Program-made: the position numbers and the translations under genes
Shown: positions 15,261 through 20,927 of the stretch, one piece after another
How the letters are laid out: each line of letters starts with the position of its first letter
Position numbering within the stretch: position 1 is the first letter of the stretch
The notes under the pieces: generated by a model
What the model was told of the DNA's origin: nothing
Database searches by the model: none
The model's input: only the letters and a program-made list of their open reading frames with translations
Assembly: GCF_000185805.1 (NCBI RefSeq)
Contig: NC_014926.1
Coordinates: forward strand, 1,010,418 to 1,074,417
Direction: 5' to 3'
Source: Thermovibrio ammonificans HB-1
GTDB lineage: Bacteria; Aquificota; Aquificia; Desulfurobacteriales; Desulfurobacteriaceae
Length of the DNA stretch: 64,000 nucleotides

Positions 15261-16463
15261 ATGGAGTTAACGGTAAGGCCTCTGGCCGACTTTTTCAAAC
15301 CCGAGGAGGTGGGCAGACACCTCCAGAAGTTCTTCGCCCACATCGGCGGCTCGTCGATGGTGTGGGACGAGAAGGGAGAGCTGAAGTTCGTAGATTTCGT
15401 TTCGCCCTACTGCGAGGTAATCTACAGTAAAGTCCCCCACCGGTGTGAGGCCGACAGGAAGGAGCGGTTTGAGAAGGCCCTGAAAATCGGTAGACCCTTC
15501 CTGCACAGGTGCTTCGCCCAGAAGTTGAACTACGTAATTCCCCTCGTTATAGAGGAGAAGTTCTTTATAGGTGTAGGGGGCGGCTGACAGGGGTTGTACA
15601 GACTCTCCCGGCGGGAGATTTTGAAAATCAGGGAGCTGGCCCTGGAGATAGGAGAAGACCCCGACAAGCTCCTCCTGCTGGCCCAGGAGGATTACGACTA
15701 CGGCTGTAGGCGCGACGACGGCGGCGTTCTGAAGCTCTCGAGGAGGAAGGAGATTCTCCTCCACCAGAGCAGGCTCTTTTTAAGGAGCCTCAATAGGCTC
15801 TGGAGGGCGAAAAAGGAGAACGTTCCGAAGGAGAAGCTGAAGCTCCTGCTGAGGGTAGAGGAGATAGTTGCCGGGAACCTAATCAAACGGTTCCCCGTGG
15901 AAAAGGGGCAAGATGTGCTGGTCTACGAAGCTCTAAACGACCTTGTAGACGCCGTCTCCTTCCTGCTGAAAGTTGTTGCGCCGGCAAAGCTCAGGTACTA
16001 CGCCTACAGAGACCAGCTTACAGAGGTTTACAACAGACACTACCTAAAGGAGCAGGTGGACTTTTTCAGGGCAAGGCCCGAGAACTTCCCGGTCGGCGTT
16101 ATCTTCATAGATATGGACGACCTAAAGAAAATCAACGACACCTACGGCCACAACTTGGGAGACTGCTACCTGAGGAAGCTCGTTGAGGTTCTGAGGGTTT
16201 CGCTAAGGGGAGGGGACCTCATATTCCGCGTAGGCGGAGACGAGTTCGTACTCTTAGTGCCCGGGGCAAACGAGCGGATAACAAGGAGAATAGTGGAGCG
16301 GATAAGACAGAACATAAAGATGATAAACGAGATGGAGCACCTGAGACCTCCCCTTTCGGTCTCTATAGGGTATCAGGTGTGGGAGTCTCCCAGCCAGGAC
16401 TTCTGGGAGGTCCTGGCCAGGGCCGACGAGGCGATGTACAGGGAGAAAAGGGCGAAGGATTAG
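15261..16463 (+). CDS. PocR-like sensor domain + GGDEF diguanylate cyclase, read through one in-frame TGA (candidate selenoprotein)
   Basis: The frame runs 400 codons with a single TGA at 15585-15587 (residue 109). Residues 1-112 resemble a PocR ligand-binding domain with Cys51, Cys62 and Cys84, then P-L-V-I-E-E-K-F-F-I-G-V-G-G-G directly before the TGA. A helical linker (about 115-245) leads to a complete GGDEF domain (about 255-400). Its active site is G-G-D-E-F, an R-G-G-D inhibitory site lies five residues before it, and D-Q-L-T-E-V-Y-N-R is its entry motif, so it should make cyclic di-GMP. Both halves are intact in the same frame and the only in-frame start after the TGA (TTG 15594) lacks a spaced ribosome site. 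I therefore favour one recoded gene, with Sec as the likely residue 109. A plain nonsense mutation or two separate proteins remain possible. Confidence 0.6.
15585..15618 (+). promoter_or_regulatory. Candidate bacterial SECIS element following in-frame TGA
   Basis: After the TGA (15585-15587) there is a hairpin with stem TCTCCC (15604-15609) / GGGAGA (15613-15618) and a three-base loop GGC. The stem can extend downward by A-U, G-U and A-U pairs past a bulged C at 15603. The loop begins 23 bases after the TGA and starts with G. Both properties fit the general bacterial SECIS pattern as I remember it (apical loop roughly 16-37 bases from TGA, G among its first two bases). Whether SelB binds it is unknown. 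Confidence 0.45.
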
Positions 16464-19886: not shown

Positions 19887-20927
19887 ATGGAGCTCGTAAA
19901 AGAGATAACCGTTGAAGAGGCCCTTAAACGGAAAGTTGCCCTTGTAGACGTTAGAACAAGGGAGGAGTTTGAACAGTTCAGGATACCGGGAGCCTACAAC
20001 GTTCCCCTCTTCACAAAAGAGGAGAAGGAGAAGGTATCAAAGGTCTACTACGAAAAAGGGGAAAAGGCCGCAAGGCTCTACGCCTTAGAGCTTGTGGGGC
20101 CGAAGCTCCACAGAATAGTCCGCTCCATTAAGGAGATAAAGGAGAAAGAAGGGGCAACGGCCGTTTACTGCTGGAGGGGAGGCCTGAGGAGCCTTGCCGT
20201 TGCAACCATATGCAACCTAACGGGGGTGTTCGTCTTCAGGCTGCAGGGGGGCTACAGGGCCTTCAGGCAGTACATCCTCAGGAGAATAGAGGAGATATCG
20301 AAAGAGCTCAACCTGGTTGTTGTTTACGGGCCTACGGGAGTGGGTAAAACCCGTATGCTCAGGGAGCTTCAAGCCGAAGGCCTCCCGATTATAGACCTCG
20401 AAGGCCTTGCCGGCCACAGGGGCTCGGTATTCGGGGGAATCGGACTCAAACAGCCCACACAGAAAATGTTCGACGCCCTACTTTGGCAGGAACTCGAAAG
20501 GCTCAAGAACGCCCCGTTCGTAGTAGTTGAGGGAGAGAGCAAGAAGATAGGGAACCTCCACCTGCCCGACCCCTTCTGGAAGGCCATGGAGCGCGGGCAC
20601 AAACTTTTAATCACCCTTCCCCTCCAGGAGCGGGTCAAAATCTCCATGGAAGACTACATGGTAAACCGGTTCCAGCCGGAGGTCTACCTCAAAGCCCTGA
20701 AGAGAATAGAGAAAATACTGGGAAACGAAAAGTACAGGGAGATTGCAAAGCTCATACAGGAGAGGAACTACCCCGAGGCCGTGAAAGAGCTCATGGTTAA
20801 CTACTACGATAAGCTCTACAGCCGCTCCATTCCCGAAACGGACTCGGTAATAGAGGCCTCAAACTACGAAGAAGCCAAGGAGAGGCTCAAAAACTACCTG
20901 CTCTCCTTGGGAAAGACCCAGCGCTGA
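19887..20927 (+). CDS. mnmH: tRNA 2-selenouridine synthase (SelU/MnmH)
   Basis: This enzyme replaces sulfur of 2-thiouridine at the tRNA wobble base with selenium, using selenophosphate. An N-terminal rhodanese domain (about residues 1-130) has D-V-R-T-R-E-E-F and the catalytic Cys in Y-C-W-R-G-G-L-R-S (about 97). A P-loop domain follows with G-P-T-G-V-G-K-T (about 149-156) and D-L-E-G-L-A-G-H-R-G-S, both family signatures. The length of 346 is typical. Its presence means the organism makes selenophosphate, which bears on the TGA-containing GGDEF gene at 15261. The end overlaps the convergent SPOR gene by 34 bases. Confidence 0.95.
   Translation: MELVKEITVEEALKRKVALVDVRTREEFEQFRIPGAYNVPLFTKEEKEKVSKVYYEKGEKAARLYALELVGPKLHRIVRSIKEIKEKEGATAVYCWRGGLRSLAVATICNLTGVFVFRLQGGYRAFRQYILRRIEEISKELNLVVVYGPTGVGKTRMLRELQAEGLPIIDLEGLAGHRGSVFGGIGLKQPTQKMFDALLWQELERLKNAPFVVVEGESKKIGNLHLPDPFWKAMERGHKLLITLPLQERVKISMEDYMVNRFQPEVYLKALKRIEKILGNEKYREIAKLIQERNYPEAVKELMVNYYDKLYSRSIPETDSVIEASNYEEAKERLKNYLLSLGKTQR

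Follow-up and report, generated by a model that had tools for sequence, protein, structure and literature searches.

To our knowledge, the known input domains of diguanylate cyclases of the PleD, WspR and SadC type are without selenocysteine (Sec). The selenoproteins listed for bacteria are mostly redox enzymes, electron carriers and transporters, and no second-messenger enzyme is among them. A 2026 inventory covers 119 families of prokaryotic selenoproteins, and a search of its table and text returned no PocR, GGDEF or cyclase entry (PMC13188914). Among open papers that combine selenoproteins or selenocysteine with GGDEF or diguanylate cyclases, none was found to report such a protein in its title or abstract. 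Here, we describe a gene from Thermovibrio ammonificans HB-1 in a window of 64,000 nucleotides, i.e. the whole stretch of DNA that was analysed. From the comparison of sequences, we conclude that this gene (15261-16463) probably represents a new family of selenoproteins, in which the sensor of a diguanylate cyclase contains Sec. The best explanation overall, and a highly probable one, is that SelB and tRNA-Sec decode UGA 109 as Sec in the PocR sensor of a GGDEF cyclase.

The gene consists of one frame of 400 codons that ends with TAG and, like all features of the window described below, is on the + strand. As claimed in the initial annotation, its translation contains a single in-frame stop, a TGA at residue 109 (15585-15587), with the residues GVGGG before and QGLYRLSRRE after it; the positions given there for the three cysteines ahead of the TGA, i.e. 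Cys51 (TGC, 15411-15413), Cys62 (TGT, 15444-15446) and Cys84 (TGC, 15510-15512), are also correct. The N-terminal part of the protein (15261-15740) is a PocR-type sensor domain (Pfam PF10114). When the TGA is read through, the match to this family spans residues 10-138 with 27.9 bits, which exceeds the curated cut-off of 23.9 bits, while it spans residues 10-101 with 25.3 bits when the sequence is cut at the TGA. Because the match is longer and higher-scoring on read-through, the TGA is internal to a single domain. The sensor is confidently modelled by AlphaFold (mean pLDDT 90-91, with 91 for 15261-15740), which places residue 109 in a strand formed by residues 101-112. A fold search with the sensor only returned weak PAS/GAF-like matches, none of them with E < 0.001, and a sequence search of the PDB returned helical designs and chance matches and no true PocR relative; the fold search with the full-length protein mostly returned GGDEF domains. 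The GGDEF diguanylate cyclase domain (PF00990, residues 248-399; 16002-16457) scores 131-132 bits and is complete with its inhibitory site, as described before. The GGDEF motif (residues 325-329) and the RxxD inhibitory site (residues 316-319) are both invariant in the alignment of relatives. As a consequence, the protein is expected to synthesize cyclic di-GMP and to be subject to inhibition by this product, a role that we infer from these intact motifs.

Among 22 genomes of the family to which the window belongs, 11, including that of the window, have a full-length orthologue, and each orthologue has exactly one in-frame stop, which is a TGA. In the alignment, all 11 TGAs fall on the same codon in 11 species from three genera, an observation far beyond chance. 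Compared along their whole length, the proteins of the ten relatives share 49-55% identity with the window protein. The Gly codons just before the TGA vary silently while the TGA itself is constant, and the true stops of all 11 genes are TAA or TAG, never TGA. No relative was found in the plasmid and viral collections searched.

Two genomes of a fourth genus (genus g7; L021 and L022) have TGT or TGC at the TGA codon. Upstream of both genes is a sequence ending like hisE, as in the window, and we therefore judge L021 and L022 to be syntenic orthologues. Both genomes keep selB, and the one tested in full also keeps a Sec-type selD; the SRRE hairpin segment is missing from both genes. Genus g7 has lost Cys51 and Cys62 and has new cysteines at positions 82 and 91, and thus these Cys orthologues still have four cysteines. 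In genus g4, a more distant group, the residue-109 site is occupied by Ser or Ala. Thus, given the absence of Cys51 and Cys62 in genus g7 and the Ser or Ala of genus g4, the architecture does not strictly require the site. Because the family tree does not settle in which order the Sec and Cys groups branched, we claim no direction of change between Sec and Cys. One Ala-type PocR-GGDEF gene of genus g4 (L024) adjoins an open frame that, as recognised by eye, resembles a flavodiiron-type protein.

The genome contains all four genes for which a check had been proposed in the initial annotation, i.e. selA (616 bits), selB (423 bits), selD and the gene for tRNA-Sec (selC; 80.7 bits vs a gathering score of 47). 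In 21 of the 22 genomes of the family, selD has one in-frame TGA, and this TGA coincides with the position at which SelD is known to have Sec (SGUGAK). Because selD is read through its TGA, these organisms do decode UGA as Sec. The gene mnmH for tRNA 2-selenouridine synthase, which had been placed at 19887, is indeed present (19887-20927; NCBIfam PRK11784, 350 bits) and is separate from the PocR-GGDEF gene; its presence shows that the organism uses selenium. The formate dehydrogenase-like genes of the same genome (L048, L049) have no in-frame stop, and thus formate dehydrogenase, the commonest bacterial selenoprotein, is apparently not one here.

A consensus fold of the 11 regions downstream of the TGA yields a hairpin of 6 bp; its loop of 3 bases begins 23 bases past the TGA, the distance that had been noted originally. 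In the window, this proposed SECIS hairpin is at 15604-15618 and has the stem UCUCCC/GGGAGA and the loop GGC (15610-15612). For bacterial SECIS elements, an apical loop that is small and includes a guanosine has been described (PMC1088965), and the loop found here is of this kind. Synonymous conservation, covariation and likeness to selD all point to this element. Codons 112-118 form the strongest stretch of synonymous conservation in the gene; at codons 114-116, 74% of same-residue pairs have identical codons vs 21% expected, which is the top value among 343 windows of codons; averaged over all these windows, the excess is 0.09. In four sequences, one stem pair is U-A and not C-G, which takes two silent changes located in different codons (CTC..GAG becomes CTT..GAA, or TTC/TTT stands instead of CTC/CTT), and the covariation score was reached by 1 of 500 shuffles, a control that is weakened by the relatedness of the sequences. 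The innermost pair is broken in two of the 11 orthologues. The folding energy of single sequences is unremarkable (z of -1.4 in the window and about 0 in several orthologues), some sequences prefer other folds, and an Rfam search gave no SECIS match. Because folding energy alone is weak, the case for the hairpin is a comparative one, and we propose that this hairpin just downstream of UGA 109 may direct its decoding. In selD from 20 genomes (L055-L074), a strongly conserved CCC-GGUC-GGG hairpin is located 17 bases past the TGA. A second peak of synonymous-codon conservation among the 11 orthologues, at 16335-16364 (codons 359-368), is unexplained.

Sec decoding at UGA 109 is strongly supported by this comparative evidence, and two other explanations have to be weighed against it. 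If UGA 109 were a real stop, the two halves would be separate proteins or the gene would be broken, and a TTG codon six bases past the TGA in the window could be taken to favor this explanation. However, termination would interrupt a beta strand of the PocR domain, start codons downstream of the TGA have no conserved place among the orthologues, and dN/dS values of 0.04-0.15 upstream as well as downstream of the TGA, obtained from the measurable, close-enough pairs, argue for purifying selection on both sides. Moreover, the TGA is never swapped for TAA or TAG in the 11 species, and the syntenic orthologues carry a Cys codon. We therefore regard a real stop as extremely improbable. UGA is the leakiest stop codon and, in principle, could be read as another amino acid, e.g. 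Trp, by near-cognate suppression and without Sec; this is very improbable because homologues have Cys and not Trp or Arg at the site, because a conserved hairpin follows the UGA, and because the Sec machinery is complete with selD also using UGA. In the initial annotation, absence of selB or selC, homologues with neither Cys nor Sec at the site and relatives with varied stop codons had been named as signs of a broken gene or of two separate proteins. Instead, the Sec genes are present, Cys is found at the site in L021, L022 and distant PocR domains, and the stop is TGA in all 11 orthologues; the selenoprotein reading of the gene is thus supported.

In a wide genome sample, a PocR domain from another phylum has the segment GVVGGCQ aligned on the TGA, and many PocR domains of that phylum (19 genomes) have the full set of four cysteines. 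A Cys at each of the aligned positions 51, 62, 84 and 109 was found in 28 distant PocR matches. Small PocR-only proteins of other lineages (L150, L151, L156) contain a GGCG segment, and the segment of this kind that the initial annotation ascribes to PocR domains is therefore real. A four-Cys PocR domain is also present in L119, a distant relative that is a PocR-GAF-GGDEF protein. When Sec and four-Cys PocR domains of two phyla are aligned, Cys84 and Cys/Sec109 show no variation at all, and Cys51 and Cys62, which are conserved except in genus g7, show almost none. Because four-Cys PocR domains are present in other lineages, Sec109 would replace the fourth Cys of an existing subtype. In one genome of another phylum (G281, contig C5), several such PocR proteins, including L093, L119 and neighbours, are encoded close together.

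We suggest the following model for how Sec109 could function. SelB with tRNA-Sec, guided by the downstream hairpin, would decode UGA 109 as Sec, and Sec109 would be located in a beta strand of the N-terminal PocR sensor at the place of the fourth Cys in the set 51, 62, 84, 109. Together, these residues would make up a site that responds to redox state and is either a metal or Fe-S centre of the Cys3-Sec type or a Sec-Cys switch. The state of this site would reach the GGDEF domain through a helical linker (approximately residues 162-249) and thereby control the synthesis of cyclic di-GMP.

Two versions of the inferred chemistry at Sec109 have to be considered. Sec109 together with Cys51, Cys62 and Cys84 may bind a metal or an Fe-S cluster, whose state (O2, redox or metal) would control the cyclase. 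The invariance of Cys84 and Cys/Sec109 and the near-invariance of Cys51 and Cys62 across two phyla argue for this possibility, as does the presence of the first three cysteines in the sampled ordinary PocR domains. By contrast, genus g7 is without Cys51 and Cys62, even though it has Cys at positions 82 and 91, genus g4 has only three of the four cysteines, and the PDB sequence and sensor fold searches revealed no cluster in any structural match. Overall, we give metal or Fe-S binding close to an even chance. Alternatively, Sec109 could be a metal-free redox switch that forms a selenenyl-sulfide, probably with Cys149 or Cys84, and answers to oxidants or sulfur species. Cys149 (TGT, 15705-15707; GC[QR]R), which had been overlooked in the initial annotation, is present in the alignment in all 11 Sec forms and in none of the Cys, Ser and Ala forms, and would be a possible resolving Cys. 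Also in favor of a switch, the majority of known selenoproteins are regarded as redox proteins (PMC13188914). However, the model places Cys149 at the margin of a loop of low confidence, and this residue is missing from the distant four-Cys PocR domains; we consider the metal-free switch plausible but somewhat short of an even chance. With regard to metal or Fe-S binding, we tentatively speculate, at a level clearly short of even, that Sec is the fourth ligand and tunes the potential such that the cyclase answers to redox state. This would be a natural Sec-ligated signalling cofactor.

If true, a sensor with Sec would couple cyclic di-GMP to redox state or to the supply of selenium, and the window species and its ten relatives would apparently have the first bacterial second-messenger signalling protein known to incorporate selenium. 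The natural Cys/Ser/Ala/Sec series at one site makes the benefit of Sec directly measurable, and the finding points to the four-Cys PocR subtype as worth attention.

Several known systems come closest to this protein. With SelD, which exemplifies the bacterial selenoproteins with Sec/Cys pairs in the same genomes, it shares the in-frame UGA, Cys homologues, a downstream hairpin with G at the start of the loop and the selA/B/C/D background, and the CCC-GGUC-GGG of the selD hairpin is close to CCC-GKN-GGG in the PocR-GGDEF gene. However, SelD is an enzyme of selenium metabolism, while the PocR-GGDEF protein is a sensor and predicted second-messenger enzyme. Ordinary PocR domains (e.g. L092, L094) share the overall domain and three conserved cysteines with the Sec protein but carry SGQ or TGQ where the Cys/Sec segment would be. 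The four-Cys PocR domains (PF10114; e.g. L093, L119, L150, L156), which are standalone or fused to GAF or GGDEF domains, resemble it in the four positions and the GGC[Q/G] segment; they differ in having Cys and not Sec at the fourth position, in belonging to other lineages and in being without the SRRE segment that holds the hairpin. Finally, the GGDEF and RxxD motifs are common to PleD, WspR, SadC and the protein described here, and its cyclase part is a confident fold match to such cyclases.
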